This document shows, piece after piece, positions 44,701-58,839 of a DNA stretch of 64,000 bases. The stretch spans positions 1-64,000 of the forward strand of contig CAILJH010000211.1 of the NCBI GenBank assembly GCA_903834475.1, read 5' to 3'. Below the pieces are notes generated by a model. That model worked only from the letters and a program-made list of their open reading frames with translations. It was not told where the DNA came from and ran no database searches. A program made the position numbers and the translations under genes. Position 1 is the stretch's first letter. Each line of letters begins with the position of its first letter. The DNA is from an uncultured Prolixibacteraceae bacterium (GTDB lineage Bacteria > Bacteroidota > Bacteroidia > Bacteroidales > Prolixibacteraceae).

Positions 44701-45024
44701 ATGACAAATAAAATAATCACAGAAGACCAGCAGAAAGCCGCCAGATATGCCAAAGCGATGGGCCATCCAATCCGGATGTATGTACTTGAATTACTCTCGA
44801 AACAATCGTGTTGCTACAGTGGTGATTTAACCGAAGAACTTCCGATTGTCAAGTCAACTCTTTCGCAACATCTGAAAGAATTGAAAAATGCCGGGTTAAT
44901 TCAGGGCGAAATCGAAGCTCCACGTATTAAATACTGTCTGAACCGTGAGAACTGGAAAGAAGCTCAGGTTTTATTCGGAAAATTTCTGAAAATGGACAGT
45001 GAAGAACCTTTTACAAACTGCTAA
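44701..45024 (+). CDS. arsR: ArsR-family metalloregulator
   Basis: 107 residues, winged-helix. The HTH core SGDLTEELPIVKSTLSQHLKEL (about 40-61) and the AGLIQGEIEAP wing are typical. Candidate As(III)-binding cysteines are C37-C38 (KQSCCYSG) and C79 (KYCL). It heads the arsEFGP operon and its operator overlaps its own promoter. It is a paralogue of the regulator at 48600-48935 but with a different Cys pattern (CC instead of a single Cys) and a different operator. Confidence 0.9.
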   Translation: MTNKIITEDQQKAARYAKAMGHPIRMYVLELLSKQSCCYSGDLTEELPIVKSTLSQHLKELKNAGLIQGEIEAPRIKYCLNRENWKEAQVLFGKFLKMDSEEPFTNC

Positions 45025-45035
45025 AACAATTGGTC

Positions 45036-45275
45036 ATGGAAATAAAAATCTTAGGAACAGGTTGCCCAAAATGCAAAACACTTGAAAGGCTTACCCGTGA
45101 AGTAGTGGAACAAAATGGCATTGATGCCACGGTTACCAAAGTGGAAGATATTTATCAAATCATGAAATACGGCGTGATGACAACTCCGGCTTTGGTTGTG
45201 GACGAAAAAGTCGTCATTAAAGGTCGGATACCTTCATCCGATGAAATCAGACAAGTACTCACCAAAGCAATTTGA
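45036..45275 (+). CDS. arsE: Small redox-active thioredoxin-like protein (ArsE type)
   Basis: 79 residues from ATG 45036 (a TTG two codons earlier is ignored). It has a thioredoxin-like fold with CXXC in GTGCPKC (C10, C13) and the VMTTPALVVDEKVV cis-Pro region. Order and neighbours match arsE of the arsEFG operon known from Shewanella, where ArsE and ArsF reduce nitrophenyl arsenicals. On sequence alone it could be any TM0996-type glutaredoxin-like protein; context gives the name. Its stop codon lies in an 8-bp-periodic tract. Confidence 0.8.
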   Translation: MEIKILGTGCPKCKTLERLTREVVEQNGIDATVTKVEDIYQIMKYGVMTTPALVVDEKVVIKGRIPSSDEIRQVLTKAI

Positions 45276-45326
45276 CAATGAAACAATTTGAAGATTTGAA
45301 AATGGTCTAATTCATCTTCAAATCAA
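45271..45326. repeat. 8-bp-periodic tract, arsE-arsF spacer
   Basis: Units TTTGACAA, TGAAACAA, TTTGAAGA, TTTGAAAA, TGGTCTAA, TTCATCTT, CAAATCAA follow one another in strict 8-base steps, starting inside the arsE stop. The same phase pattern recurs at 48945-49033, 49443-49474, 49870-49979 and 61469-61603. Confidence 0.6.
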
Positions 45327-45358
45327 CACATATTCAAATAATTAAACTCAATATCAAG

Positions 45359-45769
45359 ATGAAAAAGATTCAATTATTAAGTATTTTGATTGTGTTGCTG
45401 ATGAGCAGTTTGATCAGCAATGCTCAAACTTCAAAAAAAGAGACAACAGGTTCCGCAGTCAATAAATTGGAAGCCTATTATTTTCACAATACGTCACGCT
45501 GTGTTACCTGCAAGACGGTTGAATCGGAGGCAAAAGCTGATCTGGAAAACCTTTATGGAAGTCAGGTAACATTCAAGGCCTTGAACCTTGAAGAAGATTC
45601 AACGAAGCCGATTGCCGAAAAATTAAAAATTTCAGGCCAAACACTGCTCATTGTCAAAGGAGATCAGCAGATAAACCTGACCAACGAAGGGTTTCTGTAT
45701 GCCCGCACAAATCCCGTAAAATTCAAAAAAATCATTAAAGAAAAAGTTGACAAACTTCTGGACTTATAA
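45359..45769 (+). CDS. arsF: Exported thioredoxin-like protein (ArsF type)
   Basis: 136 residues with a signal peptide (to NAQ, about 23) and a CXXC motif in SRCVTCKTVE (C48, C51). The body looks like a thioredoxin-fold domain (VTFKALNLEEDSTKPIAEKLKISGQTLLIV, about 69-98). In the Shewanella arsEFG operon ArsF works with ArsE in reduction of nitroaryl arsenicals. The gene follows arsE and precedes arsG by 3 bases. Without the neighbours it would be called a generic exported thioredoxin-like protein. Confidence 0.78.
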   Translation: MKKIQLLSILIVLLMSSLISNAQTSKKETTGSAVNKLEAYYFHNTSRCVTCKTVESEAKADLENLYGSQVTFKALNLEEDSTKPIAEKLKISGQTLLIVKGDQQINLTNEGFLYARTNPVKFKKIIKEKVDKLLDL

Positions 45770-45772
45770 ACC

Positions 45773-46471
45773 ATGGAGTTTCTGACCAATCTACTCGAAA
45801 ACAGCAGCATACCCTGGGTTTCGGCCTTTGTACTGGGATTGATGACAGCTATCAGTCCATGTCCGCTGGCAACCAACATCACTGCGGTAGGCTTTATCAG
45901 CAAGGATATTGAAAGCCGCAACCGTGTTTTTGTGAATGGATTGCTTTATACACTTGGACGTGCGATATCGTACACTGCGGTTGCCCTTATTATTTATTTT
46001 GGCGCCGATCAGTTTAAATTTTCAGGCATTTTTCAGCTTTACGGTGAGAAAATTATCGGCCCATTGCTGATTATCATCGGGTTGTTCATGCTGGATATTT
46101 TAAAAATAAAATTTCCGGGACTGAGCGGCATAACATCCAGAATGGAATCCAAAACGAAATGGGGATATCTCGATGCCATTTTACTGGGAATGGTTTTTGC
46201 TTTGGCCTTCTGTCCCTATAGCGGAGTTCTATATTTTGGGATGTTGGTACCGATGACTGTTGCAAGCGCATCTGGCTTATATCTTCCAATCGTTTTTGCT
46301 GTAGCTACCGGTATTCCGGTCATTATCTTTGCCTGGATACTGGCATTCTCTGTTGGTTCCATCGGAGGTTTTTATAACAAATTAAAGATTTTTGAAACCA
46401 GATTCCGGCGCGTCATTGCCATTCTCTTTATTGCTGTTGGTATCTATTACATTTTCAGAATTTTCTTTTAA
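45773..46471 (+). CDS. arsG: CcdA-like permease (ArsG type)
   Basis: 232 residues with six membrane helices. The two cysteine-proline motifs are C30 (TAISPCPLATN) and C147 (ALAFCPYSG), as in CcdA/DsbD-like electron carriers. ArsG is described as the efflux permease for aminoaryl arsenicals in the arsEFG system. A CcdA-like role of supplying electrons to ArsF is an alternative. It starts 3 bases after arsF and is followed by the arsP operator. Confidence 0.8.
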   Translation: MEFLTNLLENSSIPWVSAFVLGLMTAISPCPLATNITAVGFISKDIESRNRVFVNGLLYTLGRAISYTAVALIIYFGADQFKFSGIFQLYGEKIIGPLLIIIGLFMLDILKIKFPGLSGITSRMESKTKWGYLDAILLGMVFALAFCPYSGVLYFGMLVPMTVASASGLYLPIVFAVATGIPVIIFAWILAFSVGSIGGFYNKLKIFETRFRRVIAILFIAVGIYYIFRIFF

Positions 46472-46485
46472 AAAATTTGGCCAAA

Positions 46486-46507
46486 TTGTTCGTCGATTTA
46501 CGAACTA
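46486..46507 (+). promoter_or_regulatory. Second copy of the ArsR operator, before arsP
   Basis: TTGTTCGT-CGATTT-ACGAACTA is the arsR-promoter operator with one mismatch in the right arm and the same 6-base spacer, 15 bases before the arsP ATG. A good -7 box is not visible, so it may act as a roadblock or as a second regulated promoter. Confidence 0.7.
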
Positions 46508-46522
46508 AATGATACTTCGGAT

Positions 46523-47545
46523 ATGAGAAACATAAAAAATGCGATCTGGCTTCCTCTTGCCTTTCTGCCCATATGGTTCCTAATATATCATAATCTACAG
46601 CCGGTAACCGATTGGATTATTGACACGGCATTGGGAATAACAAAAGGTACACATTTGACCGAAGCGTTACGTTTCTTTATTTTCGAGTTCCCTAAAGTAA
46701 TGCTGCTGCTTACTCTCATCATCTTTGTGGTTGGAATTATCCGCACCTACTTTACTCCTGAAAAAACCCGCAAAGCGCTCGAAGGAAAAAAAACATTTAC
46801 CGGCAATGTGATGGCTGCCACTCTTGGAATTGTCACTCCTTTTTGCTCCTGTTCGGCCATCCCACTGTTTTTAGGTTTTGTAGAATCGGGTGTTCCGTTG
46901 GGAGTAACTTTTTCATTCCTAATTGCTGCTCCAATGATCAACGAGGTGGCTATCATACTTCTGTTTGGAATGTTTGGCTGGAAGGTTGCCGCAATTTACG
47001 TAGGAACCGGTTTGGCCATTGCCATCCTTGCCGGTTGGGTGATAGGTCTGCTGAAACTCGAAAAATGGGTTGAACCCTGGGTATATCAAACCCACATAGG
47101 TGACAGCGAATTAGAAGAAGACAAATTAACTTTTGTCAAACGGATTAATCTTGGATATGATGCGGTGAAGGAAATTGTCGGTAAAGTCTGGATTTACGTT
47201 GCACTTGGAATCCTTGTTGGTGCCGGGGCTCATGGCTATGTTCCTGAAGAATTTATGGCCGCACTGATGGGCAAATCTGCCTGGTACTCCATTCCACTTT
47301 CAGTTTTGATAGGTATTCCATTGTATTCCAATGCCGCCGGAATAGTCCCGATTGTTTCGGTTCTGATCGAAAAAGGAGCATCGCTGGGAACTGCCCTCGC
47401 ATTTATGATGTCGGTTATTGGACTTTCACTTCCTGAAATGATTATCCTGAGAAAAGTGCTAAAACTCCCGCTAATATTAACCTTTATTGGTGTTGTGGGT
47501 ACCGGAATAATGATTGTCGGGTATTTGTTTAATTATATTTTTTAA
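46523..47545 (+). CDS. arsP: ArsP-type organoarsenical efflux permease
   Basis: 340 residues, DUF318 permease with about 8-10 membrane helices. The signature TPFCSCSAIPLFLGFVESGV (C108, C110) is present; its second-half counterpart is GIPLYSNAAGIVPIV. ArsP exports trivalent organoarsenicals in Campylobacter and other bacteria. It shares the regulator operator with arsR and closes the operon. It is distantly related to the HMA-fused permease at 13796-15112. Confidence 0.85.
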   Translation: MRNIKNAIWLPLAFLPIWFLIYHNLQPVTDWIIDTALGITKGTHLTEALRFFIFEFPKVMLLLTLIIFVVGIIRTYFTPEKTRKALEGKKTFTGNVMAATLGIVTPFCSCSAIPLFLGFVESGVPLGVTFSFLIAAPMINEVAIILLFGMFGWKVAAIYVGTGLAIAILAGWVIGLLKLEKWVEPWVYQTHIGDSELEEDKLTFVKRINLGYDAVKEIVGKVWIYVALGILVGAGAHGYVPEEFMAALMGKSAWYSIPLSVLIGIPLYSNAAGIVPIVSVLIEKGASLGTALAFMMSVIGLSLPEMIILRKVLKLPLILTFIGVVGTGIMIVGYLFNYIF

Positions 47546-47554
47546 GAATACTGT

Positions 47555-48127
47555 TTACCTCAGATAATCGCTTACAGCCTTACTGATCCCCTTTTTCACA
47601 CTCTCCCAGGTTTGTTTTTTAAAACTCACAGGAGTTTCGCTCTCATCAGCGTCAACAAAATAGGTTATAGCATTCAGAATGCTTATGGCGAGCATTTGGC
47701 TGGGGTATTTTTGTTTGTGCCAGTCCATAATTTGTGGCAGGGAAAAATGTTGAAGCAATTCATACAAATCCCAAAAGTCCTTCTTCTTAGCCCTTCCGAA
47801 GATTGCCTGAATTTTCATGGCAGCAATGTCAGCGCTGCTATACATTCTGATATTGTTTGCAATTTCAATCGCTGCAATTGGTTGATGGGGAAAGTAAACG
47901 ATGTCAACCTTTATCCGGTTTATATTACAGAAAATTCCAAAATTTTTATGTCCGCTTTCATAATCGAAATCAGACCCAAATTCCACGATTAATTCGTTTT
48001 CGATACTTGAGTGGTCAAACTTTTCATGATAGAATAAATCCAGATTAATTGAACTGCGGTGCCCATAGCGAAGTGACAAAGCCGTTCCTCCCACTAAAGA
48101 AAACGGTTGAAGTGATGGTAGATCCAT
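47555..48127 (-). CDS. AbiEii/AbiGii-like nucleotidyltransferase toxin
   Basis: About 190 residues from ATG 48125-48127; a TTG one codon earlier is possible, and the open frame extends five codons further without a standard start. The fold signature FSLVGGTALSLRYGHRSSINLDLFY (about 10-34) matches the nucleotidyltransferase active site (GGTA and the SxDxD-like SINLD). It pairs with the 100-residue gene just upstream. AbiEii toxins block growth when the partner fails. The pair lies in the space between two ars operons, on the opposite strand. Confidence 0.83.
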   Translation of the reverse strand: MDLPSLQPFSLVGGTALSLRYGHRSSINLDLFYHEKFDHSSIENELIVEFGSDFDYESGHKNFGIFCNINRIKVDIVYFPHQPIAAIEIANNIRMYSSADIAAMKIQAIFGRAKKKDFWDLYELLQHFSLPQIMDWHKQKYPSQMLAISILNAITYFVDADESETPVSFKKQTWESVKKGISKAVSDYLR

Positions 48128-48135
48128 CAACCTTT

Positions 48136-48438
48136 TCAGTAAGGAAAGAGTTCAGGGTTCAACTGTCTTAGTATATAACATCTGAATTCATTAAGCGGTT
48201 TGTTTATAACAGCACTGGCAAGATAAATGCGGTGCTCGGGTAAATATTTGGCTTTCAACAAGGCATCGGTTACCTTTTCATCGCCGTAATACCGTCGGCA
48301 TTGGCGGATATCTTCCACATCGCCACGTTCAAAAACCCTCTCAATAACGAAGTTGGCTTTGGCATCGTAGTCAATCTGATCAAAGTTCACATCCCAGAAG
48401 ATGCGCTTTTCGAATATGGGTTTCGGTGTCGATATCAT
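48136..48438 (-). CDS. Antitoxin-like partner of the AbiEii protein (DUF6922-like)
   Basis: 100 residues, soluble. It opens MISTPKPIFEKRIFWDVNFD and continues with FVIERVFERGDVEDIRQCRRYYG, a pattern seen in the short proteins that precede AbiEii-like toxins (from memory, a DUF6922-type domain). It ends 8 bases before the toxin ATG, so the two are co-translated. No DNA-binding motif is obvious, so autoregulation is unproven. Confidence 0.75.
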   Translation of the reverse strand: MISTPKPIFEKRIFWDVNFDQIDYDAKANFVIERVFERGDVEDIRQCRRYYGDEKVTDALLKAKYLPEHRIYLASAVINKPLNEFRCYILRQLNPELFPY

Positions 48439-48534
48439 ACAGCGAAGATAATAAAAGGGAATGGGAACGTATGTGAAACCTGATAGAATTCATCTGAATG
48501 ACAAATTTTTTTCCGGAAATGTAATCAAAATTTA

Positions 48535-48582
48535 ATGACGTAAATATACGTCATGTTAATATTAGACGTATATTTACGTCAT
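48535..48582 (+). promoter_or_regulatory. Double palindrome operator of the second ars operon
   Basis: ATGACGTAAATATACGTCAT (48535-48554, 8-4-8) and GACGTATATTTACGTC (48565-48580) are two copies of one palindrome core, ACGTA-N4-TACGT, arranged as an overall inverted repeat. The second copy includes TATATTTA, a -7-like box. ATG of arsR follows 18 bases later. This differs completely from the first operon's operator. Confidence 0.75.
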
Positions 48583-48599
48583 AATTAAAATCTCTTGTT

Positions 48600-48935
48600 A
48601 TGGTAGTCTCAAAAACAGAACTCTTCGAAGAAACTCTTCAGGAAAAAGCTAATTTATTTAAGGCTCTCTCCCACCCTGCGCGACTGCAAATTTTGCAGTT
48701 TCTGGCTCAAACTAAAAACTGTATTTCGGGCGATATTTCTGAAGAATTGCCTTTAAGCCGCACAACAGTAAATCAGCACCTGAAAGAATTAAAAGACGCC
48801 GGACTGATCAAAGGTCACATTGAAGGTGCAAAAATGAAATACTGCCTTGATGGCGAAAAGGTAAAAGAAATGAAAAACCTTTTAAGCTCTTTTCTGGAAG
48901 AAATCCAAATTCCGGAAGACTTTATCTGCAAATAA
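48600..48935 (+). CDS. arsR: ArsR-family regulator of the arsC-acr3 operon
   Basis: 111 residues, winged-helix (SGDISEELPLSRTTVNQHLKEL, about 43-64). Cysteines C41, C82 and C110 are candidate As(III) ligands. Close paralogue of the 44701-45024 regulator (GDxxEELP, QHLKELKxAGLIxG and KYCL shared). It starts 18 bases after the double palindrome, so it likely represses its own operon until arsenite binds. Confidence 0.9.
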   Translation: MVVSKTELFEETLQEKANLFKALSHPARLQILQFLAQTKNCISGDISEELPLSRTTVNQHLKELKDAGLIKGHIEGAKMKYCLDGEKVKEMKNLLSSFLEEIQIPEDFICK

Positions 48936-48944
48936 ATTAATCAA

Positions 48945-49033
48945 TTAGCAAATTTGTCAATTCGGTAATTGAAAAAAGCGACTTACCAAACATTGACAAA
49001 ATTGGCAAATTATCACATTCTCAAATTCAAAAT
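48945..49033. repeat. 8-bp-periodic tract before arsC
   Basis: TTAGCAAA, TTTGTCAA, TTCGGTAA, TTGAAAAA (48945-48976), then TTGACAAA, and TTGGCAAA, TTATCACA, TTCTCAAA, TTCAAAAT (49002-49033), each exactly 8 bases with TT at the left edge, the last ending at the arsC ATG. Part of it is also a direct repeat of the acr3 leader. Confidence 0.6.
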
Positions 49034-49462
49034 ATGAAAGTACTTATTCTTTGTACAGGCAACAGTTGCCGCAGCCAAATGGCACATGGTTTTTTACAGT
49101 CGTTCGATCCAAACATTACTGTTTGTTCTGCTGGCACCGAAGCTTCAGGCAAACTCAATCATAAAGCTGTTGCAGCTATGAAAGAGATTGGAATCGACAT
49201 CAGTCACCACACTTCCGATTCGGTTGAAAAATATCTGAATGACGAATGGGATTTTGTGATTACTGTTTGTGGCGGCGCCAACGAAAACTGCCCTGCCTTT
49301 ATCGGAAAAGTGAAACACCGTCTGCACATTGGGTTCGACGATCCATCACACGCTGTTGGAACTGATGATTTCATCTGGAGTGAATTTATTCGCGTTCGCG
49401 ACGAGATTAAAGAAGGTTTCTGGAAGTTTTATAATGAGTCAATTCGAAAATTTGACAATTAG
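49034..49462 (+). CDS. arsC: Arsenate reductase, low-molecular-weight phosphatase type
   Basis: 142 residues. The P-loop CTGNSCR (C7-R13) is the LMW-PTP active site. A Cys pair at C79 and C86 (VCGGANENCP) has the seven-residue spacing of thioredoxin-coupled ArsC (as in Staphylococcus aureus pI258). It reduces As(V) to As(III), which is exported by the acr3 product downstream. The stop codon lies in an 8-bp-periodic tract that continues into the spacer. Confidence 0.93.
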   Translation: MKVLILCTGNSCRSQMAHGFLQSFDPNITVCSAGTEASGKLNHKAVAAMKEIGIDISHHTSDSVEKYLNDEWDFVITVCGGANENCPAFIGKVKHRLHIGFDDPSHAVGTDDFIWSEFIRVRDEIKEGFWKFYNESIRKFDN

Positions 49463-49474
49463 CAAATTAAAACA
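49443..49474. repeat. 8-bp-periodic tract across the arsC stop codon
   Basis: TTCGAAAA, TTTGACAA, TTAGCAAA, TTAAAACA in consecutive 8-base steps spanning the last codons and stop (TAG 49460-49462) of arsC. The same class of sequence as 49870-49979. Confidence 0.55.
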
Positions 49475-49515
49475 GCCTAAAAGAAATTAGCATCATCACC
49501 TTAATAATTTGGAAA

Positions 49516-49869
49516 ATGGAAACTGAACCGAAAGAAAATGTGATAATCAATCTAACTTTTGAGTTTGCATTGAAAATTATTGATTTATGTGATGAACTTG
49601 ATGGATTAAAGAAATTCGCCCTCTCCAATCAACTTTTTAAATCAGGAACTTCAATTGGGGCAAACGCGAGAGAAGCTCAAAATGCAGAAAGCAAAGCTGA
49701 TTTCATACATAAATTCAAAATCTCAGCTAAAGAAGTTGAAGAAACTGAATACTGGCTTTTACTTTGTAAATACTCAAAAAAGCTTCCTGACACCACCCAA
49801 CTTCTATCCGAATTGGAACCCATAAAGAAAATAATCAACAAAATAATTGGCACATCAAAACGCAATTAA
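49516..49869 (+). CDS. Four-helix-bundle protein (23S IVS type)
   Basis: 117 residues, helical, with the family core ALKIIDLCDELDG, KFALSNQLFKSGTSIGANAREAQNAESKADF and FKISAKEVEETEYWLLLCKYS. Proteins of this family were first found in 23S rRNA intervening sequences, but many occur alone on chromosomes; function is unknown. It lies between arsC and acr3 in the same direction, with spacers of 53 and 110 bases. Confidence 0.88.
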   Translation: METEPKENVIINLTFEFALKIIDLCDELDGLKKFALSNQLFKSGTSIGANAREAQNAESKADFIHKFKISAKEVEETEYWLLLCKYSKKLPDTTQLLSELEPIKKIINKIIGTSKRN

Positions 49870-49979
49870 TTCGACAATTAATCACTTCGGGAATTTGCCG
49901 ATGAAAGGCATGGCATTTTTTAATTTCCGAATTTTCATATTGACACATTGGCAAATTATCTAATTCTCAAATTAAAAAC
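49870..49979. repeat. 8-bp-periodic tracts between the four-helix gene and acr3
   Basis: TTCGACAA, TTAATCAC, TTCGGGAA, TTTGCCGA (49870-49901), then seven perfectly phased units at 49924-49979: TTTCCGAA, TTTTCATA, TTGACACA, TTGGCAAA, TTATCTAA, TTCTCAAA, TTAAAAAC. The last unit ends at the acr3 ATG. No Shine-Dalgarno is present. Confidence 0.65.
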
Positions 49980-51053
49980 ATGAATAAACGTCTTAAATTT
50001 CTCGACCGCTACCTCACGCTTTGGATATTCCTGGCCATGTTTATTGGCGTTTTTGCCGGATGGCTAAGTCCAAATGTAGCCGAATTCTGGAACAGTATGT
50101 CATCCGGAACAACCAATATTCCCATTGCCATCGGGCTAATTGTGATGATGTACCCCCCACTGGCCAAAGTGAAGTACGAAGAATTAGGCGATGTCTTCAA
50201 AAACACCAAAATTCTTGGACTTTCATTATTTCAGAACTGGGTGGTCGGACCAATATTGATGTTCGCTCTGGCGATCACTTTTTTCAAGCTTTTCCCCGGT
50301 GAAAACAATGCGAATCTGCCATACATGTATGGAATTATCCTGATTGGCCTGGCTCGTTGTATTGCCATGGTCATTGTTTGGAATGACCTTGCCAAAGGTG
50401 ACACCCAATATGCTGCAGGATTGGTAGCTTTTAATTCCGTTTTTCAGGTTCTGCTGTTCTCGGTTTATGCCTATATTTTTATCGCTATTCTGCCGGGTTG
50501 GTTCGGAGTTCCGGTGAATGATACAGTTTCTCAAATTACGATGGGAGCTATCGCTAAAAGTGTGTTTATCTATCTGGGAATCCCAATGATTGCAGGCTTC
50601 CTGACCCGATTTATTTTAACTCGTGTTAAAACCAAGCTTTGGTACGAAACCAAATTTGTACCTAAAATCAGTCCGTTAACACTGATCGCTTTGCTTTTTA
50701 CCATTGTGGTGATGTTCTCACTGAAAGGCGAATACATTGTGAAGATTCCGATGGATGTTGTGCTGATAGCCATTCCATTGCTCATTTATTTCGTGGTCAT
50801 GTTCTTCAGCTCATTTTATATGAGCAAAAAGATTGGAGCCAATTACGAACAATCGACCACTCTGGCTTTCACCGCTGCCAGCAACAATTTCGAACTTGCA
50901 ATTGCAGTAGCTATCGCCATTTTCGGAATCAATTCTGGAGAAGCCTTTGCCGGTGTCATTGGTCCGCTGGTCGAAGTTCCGGTGATGATCGGGCTCGTGA
51001 ATGTGGCGTTTTGGTTTAGAAAAAGGTATTATACCAGCAAATCGATTGTATGA
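49980..51053 (+). CDS. acr3: ACR3-type arsenite efflux transporter
   Basis: 357 residues with ten membrane helices. ACR3 signatures: [56 protein letters not shown] (the conserved Cys) and the C-terminal [22 protein letters not shown] with [11 protein letters not shown]. It exports As(III) produced by ArsC. Final gene of the second ars operon. Its leader is 8-bp periodic. Confidence 0.93.
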
Positions 51054-51161: not shown

Positions 51162-51551
51162 ATGAAATATAGGGTATATGCTATACTGCAATTGTTTATA
51201 ATGGCCTTTTATTTGGCAAGACCAATTCTTCCCTATATTGAATATGCTGTTTTTAAGGATTACATAGCAAAGAACCTTTGCGTCAACAGAGATAAACCCA
51301 AAAGTTGCTGCCAGGGTAAATGTCATCTTAAGAAACAAATAGAAAAAACCGCTGAAGCAAGCGATACAGAAGAAAAAGGCTCAAACAGAAAAATCCTCAG
51401 TCAGGAAGTCCAGGATTTCCTGATTTCACCAGTTTCAATTCCTAAAGCAACAGAAGTAAAAATACCGCATTTGGCGAATATTGAAATAATCATTACGACT
51501 CAGGTTGTTTCGTCCATATTTGTGCCTCCCAAAACAATTGTCATTTCTTAA
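51162..51551 (+). CDS. Small membrane protein with CVNRDKPKSCCQGKCH motif
   Basis: 129 residues. One N-terminal membrane segment (about 7-25). Cysteines C40, C49, C50 and C54, plus His55, in LCVNRDKPKSCCQGKCHLKK form a metal-ligand-like cluster, followed by a charged linker. It is 155 bp ahead of a Met/His-rich lipoprotein and a TonB receptor with a copper-site-like motif. A role in metal handling is inferred from the Cys/His cluster and the neighbours; no enzyme function is visible. Confidence 0.75.
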   Translation: MKYRVYAILQLFIMAFYLARPILPYIEYAVFKDYIAKNLCVNRDKPKSCCQGKCHLKKQIEKTAEASDTEEKGSNRKILSQEVQDFLISPVSIPKATEVKIPHLANIEIIITTQVVSSIFVPPKTIVIS

Positions 51552-51705
51552 TTTGATCATTCATTTTGCTGTGCTTTAAAGACTATAAAGGTATTGTTGA
51601 ATACTTTTTTATTTCAGCACGTGAGCAACTTACATGTTTTGCTATTGGTATAAGACTTTCTTCTTATGACCATTAGCTGATTTTTATTATCTAATATTTA
51701 CAATA

Positions 51706-52539
51706 ATGAAACACATTTTAAAATTCATATACATCCTTTTGATTTCAGTCTTGCTTATCTCTTGTGATAAAAACAATGAAGCGCCAACTATTGATCCATT
51801 AGATGGTTACACAAAACTAAAAGAAGGCTATGCCTTGGGTGCATCGGCCAAGGTTGAGATTTGGGGTAAGAAAAACTTCTTTATGGGTTATAACAATTTA
51901 GTTGTTGTGCTTTACGATTCACTTAACCTGAAAGAAAAAATTACTGATGCGCATATTCATTTTATGCCGCTTATGACCATGGGAATGGGCGCTATGGCTA
52001 TGCAACACACTTGTCCGATTGAAAACCCGGATGAAACAGACACTAACGATGTTTTCCCAGGCGCTGTTGCATTTGTAATGCCAACGACTGCTGATGGTAC
52101 CTGGAAGCTTGGCATAGCAGTACACAATCATAAATACGACAAAGAAGGTGAGGCCAATTTCGATATCACTGTTGATAATCCTGAAACATCTGTTTTAACT
52201 GTATTTACAGCTTTGGCTCCCGACAACAATAAGCTTGTATTGTCCATTCTCGAACCTTCGAAACCCAAAGTGGGAATCAATGATATTGAATTTACGTTGC
52301 ACCGCAAAGCCAGCATGATGGATTGGCCTGCCGATGATTCGTACACCATTGAAATTACACCTGAAATGCCAAGCATGGGACATGGTTCGCCAAACAATGT
52401 AAATCCGGTTAGTTCGGGTAACGGACATTATAAGGGAAAAGTAAACTTCACTATGACCGGTGAATGGAAGATTAATGTTCTGGTTAAAAAAGACGGGAAT
52501 CTTATTTCTAAAGATTTGTATTTCAACATAACCCTTTAA
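51706..52539 (+). CDS. Met/His-rich YtkA-like lipoprotein (copper-binding candidate)
   Basis: 277 residues. Lipobox LLISC (Cys20). Residues 83-103 are striking: H83, H85, M87, M90, M92, M94, M97, M99, H101 and C103 within 21 positions (HIHFMPLMTMGMGAMAMQHT). A second Met/His site, EMPSMGHGSP, lies in the C-terminal part. Two Ig-like YtkA/FixH-type domains (LALV-type strands, about 115-165 and 195-275) make up the rest. Thioether-rich segments like this bind Cu(I) in known copper proteins. It probably passes copper to or from the TonB receptor gene 48 bases downstream. Confidence 0.8.
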   Translation: MKHILKFIYILLISVLLISCDKNNEAPTIDPLDGYTKLKEGYALGASAKVEIWGKKNFFMGYNNLVVVLYDSLNLKEKITDAHIHFMPLMTMGMGAMAMQHTCPIENPDETDTNDVFPGAVAFVMPTTADGTWKLGIAVHNHKYDKEGEANFDITVDNPETSVLTVFTALAPDNNKLVLSILEPSKPKVGINDIEFTLHRKASMMDWPADDSYTIEITPEMPSMGHGSPNNVNPVSSGNGHYKGKVNFTMTGEWKINVLVKKDGNLISKDLYFNITL

Positions 52540-52549
52540 TTTAGATTGA

Positions 52550-52577
52550 GGCCGGGGTTTTTTGTCCGGCCTTTATC
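52550..52577 (+). terminator. Hairpin between lipoprotein and TonB receptor genes
   Basis: AGGCCGG and CCGGCCT arms (seven pairs) enclose a T-rich loop, followed by TTTATC. It lies just past the lipoprotein stop and just before the receptor ATG, so it may be an attenuating terminator within the operon. Confidence 0.5.
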
Positions 52578-52587
52578 TTCTTTTACC

Positions 52588-54651
52588 ATGCGAAAAAACT
52601 TTGTTATTGTCTGGTTGGTTGTTTTGCCAATTTTATCGATGGCACAAATAGCTGATAGTTCAAAAATATGGCCTACAGTCATTACTTTACAAGAAGTTAA
52701 AGTTTCGGCAGATCTACCTTTAAACAATTCGGATGTGGTTGATTTTTACCGCACCAATCATTTTGCGACACTTGATAACATCAATGCGCGATTGGATGGA
52801 ATGGCTTTGATCAAACGCGGTGCTTATGCGCTCGAACCGCAATTGAATGGGTTTTCAGGAGGACAGTTAAATGTTACAATCGATGGAATGAGAATGTTTG
52901 GTGCCTGTACCGATAAGATGGATCCAATTACCTCTTATATTGAACCATCGAACCTGAAAAGCATTGCCATCAATCAAGGCACAAATGGAAGTATAAACGG
53001 CTGCAATATAGGTGGTTCAGTAGATCTGTGTTTGATGGAACCCAATCAAAAGAGTTTGAATCCCTATGCTTCTTCATTGGGATTTGGATATGAAAGTGTT
53101 TCGAAAAGCAAGAACGTCCTATTTTCGATAGCTTCAATAAAGAACAAATGGGCTTGGGGTTTTGACGCGGTGTACCGGAAAAATGAAAATTACAGGAGCG
53201 GGGATGATCAAATAATTCCTTTCTCTCAGTTTCAGAAAGCAAACCTGCATGCTGTGGTAAAATATACACCCGATGATATTCAGAATTATAAACTTGACCT
53301 GCTTTATGATGACGCGCGAAATGTTGGTTATCCGGCATTACCCATGGATGTTGGAATTGCCCGGGCATCACTAATGGCATTCGAATATCAGCTTAACAAC
53401 AAAAACCAGTTAAAAGCAAAAATCTACTACAATACCATTCACCATGTGATGGATGATTCGAAAAGGGATAGTTTATACATTCTTGATTCTAATACCGATG
53501 GCAAATCGGATTCAGTTTATATGCGGATGGACATGCCGGGTAAAAGTTCAACTTTAGGCGCTTACGTTCAGTTTGTTCTGCCGTGGAATGAACGGAACAG
53601 GTTATTGGTTAAGGCCGACAATTACACCCACAATTCTTTAGCCGAAATGACCATGCACATGCGGTATCCGGGCTCTGCGCTCGTACCCTCAATGTACATG
53701 CAAACCTGGCCCCAAATGTTGCGAAATGTTTCCGGAATATTCTTGCAGAATACCACTTTCGTCTCCCAGAAACTTCAGATAATGATGAATGGACGTTTGG
53801 ATTACAACATGGATATTTTGCAGTCGCAATACGGTCAAGAACAATTCTCTGTATTTAATTATTCACTTTCCAAAAAGCAAAGCAAGCTTGTTAAAAGCCT
53901 TAATTTAAGTGTTCAGTACTATCTCTTGAAAAGCCTGTCGATGGTCACAACTATGGGCTATTCGGAACGGATGCCGACCATTGGTGAACGATTGGGATTC
54001 TATTTGTACAATGCATACGATGGATACGATTATATTGGAAATCCTTACATTAAACCAGAAAAATCAAATTATTTCAGGTTGGCTTTTCAGTTTTCAAGAC
54101 CCAAAATAAAAACCAATTTCAGCCAATCATTTAGCTATTTGAGGAATTATATTATGGGCGTTACCGATACCCAAATACCAGCTATGAACTTTTATGCTAA
54201 CGGAATCAGAGTTTATCAGAATATACCTTCGGCAAAGCTTTACAGTACCGACCTACAGGTTCTGTTTAATCCAATAAATAGTTTGAGTTTTTACCTGAAT
54301 TCAAAATTTACAATGGGTGAACTTGGGTCGGGAGAGCCAATGCCATTAATTCCACCGCTCAATACGGTTTTTGCGGCACAATACCAGAAAGGTAAATTCA
54401 TGCTACAGGCCGAATGCGAAAATTCACTTGCACAAAACCGGATTAACCTGAATTATGGCGAGCGCCAAACTCCTTCCTATACCATCTTTAATTTTAAAAG
54501 CGGATACACCTTTAAATTGTTCAAATATGCGCTGGATGCGAGTTTGGGAGTAACAAATATTCTCAATAAGGCTTATTACGCTCATCTTGATTGGGGACGA
54601 ATTTACAGGCCAGGACGTAGTTTAGAGATGTTTTTAAAGTATAGTTTTTGA
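52588..54651 (+). CDS. TonB-dependent receptor with CxxxM copper-site-like motif
   Basis: 687 residues from ATG 52588; an upstream TTG start lies inside the hairpin and is rejected. A signal peptide ends at SMAQ (about 19), and no carboxypeptidase-like N-terminal domain precedes the plug. In the plug, C107-x3-M111 (MFGACTDKMDP) is preceded by M101 and M103. An extracellular-type segment carries M354, M356, H357, M358 (MTMHMRYPG) with M369, M371 and M377. This resembles the CxxxM-HxM site reported for the copper receptor OprC/NosA (from memory). The barrel continues to a C-terminal Phe. Confidence 0.85.
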   Translation: MRKNFVIVWLVVLPILSMAQIADSSKIWPTVITLQEVKVSADLPLNNSDVVDFYRTNHFATLDNINARLDGMALIKRGAYALEPQLNGFSGGQLNVTIDGMRMFGACTDKMDPITSYIEPSNLKSIAINQGTNGSINGCNIGGSVDLCLMEPNQKSLNPYASSLGFGYESVSKSKNVLFSIASIKNKWAWGFDAVYRKNENYRSGDDQIIPFSQFQKANLHAVVKYTPDDIQNYKLDLLYDDARNVGYPALPMDVGIARASLMAFEYQLNNKNQLKAKIYYNTIHHVMDDSKRDSLYILDSNTDGKSDSVYMRMDMPGKSSTLGAYVQFVLPWNERNRLLVKADNYTHNSLAEMTMHMRYPGSALVPSMYMQTWPQMLRNVSGIFLQNTTFVSQKLQIMMNGRLDYNMDILQSQYGQEQFSVFNYSLSKKQSKLVKSLNLSVQYYLLKSLSMVTTMGYSERMPTIGERLGFYLYNAYDGYDYIGNPYIKPEKSNYFRLAFQFSRPKIKTNFSQSFSYLRNYIMGVTDTQIPAMNFYANGIRVYQNIPSAKLYSTDLQVLFNPINSLSFYLNSKFTMGELGSGEPMPLIPPLNTVFAAQYQKGKFMLQAECENSLAQNRINLNYGERQTPSYTIFNFKSGYTFKLFKYALDASLGVTNILNKAYYAHLDWGRIYRPGRSLEMFLKYSF

Positions 54652-58506: not shown

Positions 58507-58839
58507 ATGCGACGATTCGCTACTATTCTTCTCATCATTTTTCTTCTGGGGATAGATTCCTGTAAAAAGGATGAAACTTCAAATTCGGATCAATTTCCAG
58601 GGTGGCTTCAAGCTAAAATCACAGAGCTAACTTCCGAATTTAATCTTTGCAAAATAACTGAGGTCACCATCATTGAGTATAAAGGTCAAAAATACTATCA
58701 TGTTTATTGCGGAGTTTGGTCGTGCATGTATTGCCAGCTTTTTGACGAAACGGGAAACCGGCCAACCTGGGATAACGTGGAGTGGAATGATTTTTTTTCA
58801 AATAAAAAAGAGATTAAAATAGTTCCGGCCTGTCCTTAA
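58507..58839 (+). CDS. Small lipoprotein of unknown function
   Basis: 110 residues. A signal peptide ends with lipobox GIDSC (Cys19). The remaining sequence has five cysteines, including SCMYC and the terminal ACP, with the segment PGWLQAKITELTSEFNLCKITEV. No named family recognised. It stands alone between the MATE gene (divergent) and rlmI (convergent). Confidence 0.7.
   Translation: MRRFATILLIIFLLGIDSCKKDETSNSDQFPGWLQAKITELTSEFNLCKITEVTIIEYKGQKYYHVYCGVWSCMYCQLFDETGNRPTWDNVEWNDFFSNKKEIKIVPACP

Follow-up and report, generated by a model that had tools for sequence, protein, structure and literature searches.

A probable copper-import module in Bacteroidota: an OprC-like receptor with a predicted copper lipoprotein and a candidate copper-sensing leader

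How copper passes the outer membrane of Gram-negative bacteria is largely an open question, the described cases that we can cite being OprC and CrtA. Three adjacent genes raise it again in a window of 64,000 nucleotides (nt), the whole stretch analyzed, from an uncultured Prolixibacteraceae bacterium (assembly GCA_903834475.1, contig CAILJH010000211.1; all positions are numbered within the window). An earlier note had taken them for a copper-acquisition operon in which a TonB-dependent receptor is joined by two undescribed partners, a lipoprotein and a small Cys-rich membrane protein. Does this locus import copper, and what would each gene contribute? Our results indicate that the three genes very probably form a copper-import unit, copper import being a well-supported prediction from sequence anatomy and gene context. 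The whole would be best explained as an import module made of a receptor, a copper-exchanging lipoprotein, and a sensing leader, a reading to which we assign a probability of about 70%.

All three open reading frames (ORFs) are present where the note had placed them. On the + strand, as are all features of the module described below, they run in the order small Cys-rich ORF (51162..51551; 129 residues, exported or membrane-anchored), predicted copper-binding lipoprotein (51706..52539; 277 residues, with signal peptide II and lipobox Cys20), and OprC-like TonB-dependent receptor (52588..54651; 687 residues), with gaps of 154 and 48 nt. A longer receptor start, a TTG at 52546, was judged unlikely. 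The genes also recur together in the kind of co-occurrence check that the note had proposed. Among 392 Bacteroidota genomes, 53 carry the lipoprotein family (33 of 179 genera), 64 the receptor family, and 147 the Cys-rich family, and for 51 of the 61 lipoprotein genes the receptor is the next gene downstream on the same strand (52 to 798 nt between matches). In relatives of the host, the three genes are kept together while the outer neighbors differ. Given this recurrence, the arrangement is no chance neighborhood. Within the genus the lipoprotein was found in only 4 of 23 genomes searched, the window's own included, and this patchy distribution suggests loss or transfer.

A phmmer search against PDB matched the receptor to a single family, the OprC structures (E 3.9e-16), and Pfam recognizes both its plug and its barrel domain. 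In the alignment, GACTDKMDPITSYI lies opposite GACPNRMDAPTSYI of OprC, and YYNTIHHVMDD lies opposite YYNYADHIMDN. The copper ligands of OprC are C143, M147, H323, and M325 (PMC8610252); the equivalents in the window receptor are therefore C107, M111, H286, and M288, which gives a predicted plug site CxxxM (52906..52920) and a predicted barrel site HxM (53443..53451). Conservation of the receptor's cysteine and methionines had been set beforehand as the test of the proposal, and the four columns read CMHM in 25 of 25 aligned receptors (24 paired with the lipoprotein or from its loci, 1 from a lipoprotein-free branch). The CxxxM plug site named in the note is thus real and invariant. The MTMHM loop that the note had set beside it (M354 to M358; 53647..53661) also exists, but we rejected it as the HxM half of the site: M354 is conserved in 25 of 25 receptors and M356 in 24 of 25, whereas H357 and M358 vary, and the HxM of OprC aligns with H286xM288. 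The loop is instead a candidate for part of a methionine track, which the other conserved methionines in this alignment (M101, M253, M314, M316, M354, M356, and M369) could form.

OprC-like receptors that lack the lipoprotein (the ACPNRMD/ACPSRMD branch) keep CMHM, apart from two distant ones with G in place of C, and six unrelated control receptors are without the site. When the receptor model was compared by Foldseek, OprC chains made up most of the top fold matches (TM score 0.66 to 0.71, for a model with a predicted local distance difference test [pLDDT] of only 65), and ZnuD was matched as well; across plug residues 105 to 117 the pLDDT falls below 50, too uncertain for site geometry. Loci L102 to L115 hold a second OprC-like branch, with the ACPNRMD plug and no lipoprotein, and in nearly all of them a Cys...PP leader lies directly upstream. 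The OprC-like receptor of Bizionia argentinensis may belong to that branch.

The lipoprotein does, as the note had observed, hold nine Met or His residues among 21, in DAHIHFMPLMTMGMGAMAMQH (residues 81 to 101; 51946..52008), a density that the shuffled mature protein reached in 0.045% of 20,000 trials. Pfam YtkA (PF13115) matches its C-terminal half, domain 2, at 45.3 bits against a gathering cut-off of 25.9, and when the family alignment was split, hhalign matched the N-terminal half as a copy of the C-terminal domain (97.9%, E 4e-13). Both domains of this tandem carry a loop P-x-M-x-M...H-x-x-P, represented in domain 1 by the Met/His-rich stretch (family pattern P-[LMIV]-M-x-M...M-x-H-x-x-P) and in domain 2 by PEMPSMGHGSPNNVNP (residues 219 to 234; 52360..52407), the counterpart of the CrdA Met motif. 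An AlphaFold model made from 11 sequences (mean pLDDT 86.8) places two all-beta domains behind the signal helix. The top VIA-align match of domain 1 is Helicobacter pylori CrdA in its silver-bound form (9ll4; Z 13.3, root mean square deviation 2.3, 106 of 106 residues), well above the next unrelated match at Z 9.1, and domain 2, too, has a phmmer match to CrdA, by way of PEMP-x-M (E 0.0025). CrdA has micromolar Cu(II) affinity, and tighter Cu(I) binding through its Met-rich loop has been proposed (PMC9182242); Bacillus subtilis CtaK (YtkA) has been linked to the building of the copper center in a cytochrome oxidase (PMC13344008). Each lipoprotein domain shares with CrdA, CtaK, and CopC an immunoglobulin-like fold and a Met-rich copper motif, but those proteins have a single domain and no TonB receptor partner, whereas the window protein is a duplicated domain on a lipoprotein. 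We found no published description of the lipoprotein-receptor pair in the open-access literature, and, as far as we searched, a conserved two-domain predicted copper lipoprotein as receptor partner appears undescribed. Lone lipoprotein copies at three loci (L119, L121, and L124) have an HMA-domain protein and a CNSCGGGTGDL protein as neighbors and no receptor in the vicinity.

On which side of the membrane would this lipoprotein act? The note had envisaged copper capture at the surface, but it is possible that the lipoprotein is periplasmic, a copper acceptor or chaperone in the manner of CrdA, CtaK, and NosL that passes copper from the receptor to cuproenzymes without any surface capture, and we place the chance of this only somewhat short of even. 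CrdA and CtaK/YtkA, the closest proteins by fold and family, handle copper outside the cytoplasm on its way to efflux or to the assembly of oxidases (PMC9182242, PMC13344008). The lipoprotein, moreover, adjoins NosL in nos clusters. Arguing for the surface instead, 15 of 25 lipoprotein relatives carry two or more Asp or Glu residues within five residues after the lipid Cys, and acidic residues in this place resemble the surface-export signal of Bacteroidota lipoproteins. Also against a periplasmic location, TonB receptors in Bacteroidota are commonly paired with surface lipoproteins (PMC7618045, PMC6143338). BtuB-BtuG and SusC-SusD of that phylum likewise combine a lipoprotein gene with a TonB receptor gene, but their substrates are organic and their surface exposure has been demonstrated, whereas that of the window lipoprotein is a candidate reading. 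Tentatively, and with more doubt than confidence, one may picture a SusCD-like pair for metal ions, in which the lipoprotein would be a lid or feeder that passes single copper ions to the receptor, with synthesis of the pair gated by a nascent-chain copper sensor from a Bacteroidota family and with variants that specialize in supplying N2O (nitrous oxide) reductase.

For the small Cys-rich ORF we depart from the note, which had made it a component of the pathway: on our analysis it is probably a cis-acting, copper-sensing leader peptide of the CutF/CruR type. CutF and CruR sense copper during their own synthesis and regulate the downstream genes (PMC9973294, PMC9426467), and arrest by CruR has been demonstrated in vitro (PMC12992588). 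The window ORF has a hydrophobic N-terminal segment, a Cys cluster (C40, C49, C50, and C54), and a poorly conserved linker. Its putative copper-binding motif, C40..C49-C50-x-G-x-C54 (51279..51323), is invariant in alignment A2, and all 48 relatives have a CxGxC-type motif. Near the C terminus, SIFVPP supplies a stalling-like Pro-Pro (PP; 51525..51530; compare PMC9973294 and PMC9426467), and PP occurs within the last 15 residues in 45 of 48 relatives versus 8 of 141 background ORFs; the spacing from Cys motif to PP stays at 62 to 70 residues across the relatives despite the variable linker. Such a leader lies directly upstream in 26 of 38 modules versus 6 of 261 control genes. The published rules for CutF-like proteins call for fewer than 150 residues, PP in the last 15 residues, and a same-strand downstream gene within 1000 nt (PMC9973294), and the window ORF, with 129 residues, PP at 122 and 123, and the next gene 154 nt downstream, falls within them. 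Those rules also ask for an N-terminal Sec signal peptide, for which the hydrophobic N terminus, read directly from the residues, is a candidate. A search of PDB sequences with the Cys-rich protein gave no match. The idea of such a leader family is not new, because the CutF survey, which reported many CutF-like proteins in Bacteroidota with TonB genes as frequent neighbors (PMC9973294), already covers it; of the two partners that the note had called undescribed, the lipoprotein therefore keeps that standing in the literature found, and the leader does not.

The conserved Cys motif and the N-terminal hydrophobic segment would also suit a pathway component with a structural or chaperone role, such as a membrane copper-binding protein, as would the family's wide occurrence, including in receptor-free operons. 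We consider this unlikely in view of the fixed spacing and near-universal C-terminal PP, the position of the ORF at the head of several different copper or TonB operons, and its substitution at the same place by RPP-ending Cys/His-rich ORFs (L084, L085, and L132 to L135). The Cys-rich family indeed heads MbnP-MbnH, SCO1, and TonB-PepSY_TM gene runs as well, and because TonB-PepSY_TM runs may have to do with either iron or copper, the metal that this family senses need not always be copper. A TonB receptor and a PepSY_TM gene follow the same Cys-rich leader at L055, L056, L061, L065, L066, L069, and L092; several PepSY_TM-linked receptors share the plug motif FNHN and may belong to an iron system or be the Bacteroidota equivalent of CrtA, a copper receptor. 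A second leader type, rich in Cys and His and ending in RPP, precedes the lipoprotein-receptor pair at L084 4192-4653, L085 4372-4800, L132 7331-7798, L133 7842-8306, L134 3190-3633, and L135 2972-3415, some of these being nos-linked modules; Pfam gave no match for the one in L132.

The neighborhoods of the module point to copper enzymes. At least 13 of 51 modules lie within 14 kilobases of nosZ; several sit inside a nosZ-nosL-nosDFY run, the lipoprotein-receptor pair lies between nosL and nosD in one gene run at L083 and L128, and L072, L075, L076, L082, and L132 to L135 are further nos neighborhoods (NosL, NosD, and NosZ assignments were verified on examples). Across genomes, nosZ is commoner with the lipoprotein (30 of 52 versus 105 of 339 genomes; Fisher p 2.7e-4, uncorrected for kinship). 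Elsewhere, MbnP, MbnH, the lipoprotein, and the receptor follow one another (L089 3229-8160 and L136 370-5429) in what is possibly a four-part copper system, and the module at L077 lies near SCO1 and a copper nitrite reductase (NirK). With the invariant CxxxM-HxM and the conserved lipoprotein pairing, these nos, nirK, MbnP-MbnH, and SCO1 neighborhoods strongly support the note's central proposal of copper acquisition through an OprC-type receptor. In the host itself, N2O reductase as the client is not supported: the 66%-complete bin and its relatives yielded only fragments below the cut-off of the NosZ model. The bin has three COX1-type oxidase genes, and five related genomes likewise have oxidases and no NosZ. 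The oxidases are therefore the likely clients in the host, as far as can be judged from an incomplete bin.

Several findings weigh against the import module as we read it. The receptor scores 121 bits against the copper-receptor equivalog TIGR01778 of NCBIfam, below the cut-off of 472.45, and for this reason we call it OprC-like and not an equivalog; its fold also resembles that of the zinc receptor ZnuD. No leader was recognized in 12 of 38 modules; DUF2946, the Pfam family of CutF and CruR, was not matched by the Cys-rich ORF in a scan that admitted E values up to 1; and the ORF shows FxPP where CruR has RAPP. In one relative (L011) the lipoprotein is unaccompanied by receptor or leader, and some genomes carry lone lipoprotein copies. 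Finally, a CusBA-like efflux pair precedes the module at L010, which opens the possibility of a function in copper tolerance. Such a module would sequester copper instead of acquiring it; CrdA is a resistance determinant, and the window module sits behind arsenic resistance genes. We nonetheless regard tolerance as quite improbable, since TonB receptors bearing an OprC site are importers, the association with nosZ, MbnP-MbnH, and SCO1 speaks for supply, and the arsenic neighbors are not conserved with the module. The least probable reading is that the substrate would be a metal other than copper or a chelated metal (zinc, heme, or chalkophore): ZnuD and heme receptors have the same fold and rank among the top matches, but the thiol, thioether, and His site is that of OprC and is missing from the six control receptors.

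An import module of this kind might work as follows. By analogy with OprC, the receptor would bind copper at a closed site of C107, M111, H286, and M288, placed by alignment, and would move it across the outer membrane with energy from TonB. The lipoprotein, with two soft Met/His sites on its duplicated YtkA/CrdA-like domains, would exchange copper with the receptor, either gathering it at the surface and handing it down the methionine track, which we slightly favor, or taking it in the periplasm and delivering it to the assembly of copper enzymes. The anatomy of the leader and the precedents of CutF and CruR suggest that its nascent chain could sense copper through CCxGxC and that its C-terminal Pro-Pro could tune how the two genes that follow are translated or transcribed. 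The likely clients would be heme-copper oxidases in the host and, in relatives, N2O reductase too and possibly copper nitrite reductase. The least certain points are the membrane side on which the lipoprotein acts and regulation by the leader.

As far as we searched, the receptor and the leader are of known kinds and the lipoprotein partner is the new part. With OprC/NosA of Pseudomonas the receptor shares the plug-barrel fold, the exact CxxxM-HxM, and extra conserved methionines as a possible track, but it differs in its low identity (about 18% in the structural match), its score under the TIGR01778 cut-off, its family plug motif C[TV]D[KRG]MD, and its dedicated lipoprotein gene, a partner unmentioned for OprC in PMC8610252. 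The receptor of B. argentinensis is likewise a Bacteroidota receptor with CxxxM-HxM, for which neither a lipoprotein partner nor a leader is described (PMC11213822). CutF (Rhodobacter) and CruR (Bordetella) resemble the window leader as short exported ORFs with a Cys motif and a C-terminal Pro-Pro at the head of copper or TonB operons, but have CxxxC/CXXC and RAPP where the window leader has CCxGxC and FxPP. With the module, the OprC site would gain a second context, one that spans the phylum and includes a partner apparently able to hold copper, and a candidate copper-sensing leader would be at hand outside Proteobacteria. Its positional tie to N2O reductase genes matters in that the copper supply of that enzyme limits greenhouse-gas removal. 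The reading also makes sharp predictions, which concern four site residues, two Met motifs, one Cys motif, and one Pro-Pro.

Between the lipoprotein and the receptor lies a GC-rich hairpin (52548..52573), possibly a partial terminator or an mRNA-stabilizing structure. For 23 of 38 modules, whose sequences differ here, folding of this gap is stronger than in shuffled sequences (z below -2), and the hairpin may stabilize the upstream message or restrict receptor expression. No common hairpin was evident in the gap between leader and lipoprotein, where structures differ between modules, which is not proof of absence.

Just upstream of the module, 44701-51053 holds two arsenic runs, the first with arsR, a thioredoxin-like gene, ArsF, ArsG, and an ArsP-like permease and the second with arsR, arsC, a 117-residue ORF, and acr3. 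We rejected a link with arsenic through the neighboring acr3 because the flanks of the module differ in relatives, where arsenic genes are not kept beside it. Downstream, 58507-58839 encodes a small lipoprotein with a CxxC-type motif, WSCMYCQLF, and no family match. On the minus strand within the arsenic region, an AbiEii-type nucleotidyltransferase and its DUF6922 partner (47555-48438) are probably a type IV toxin-antitoxin pair.

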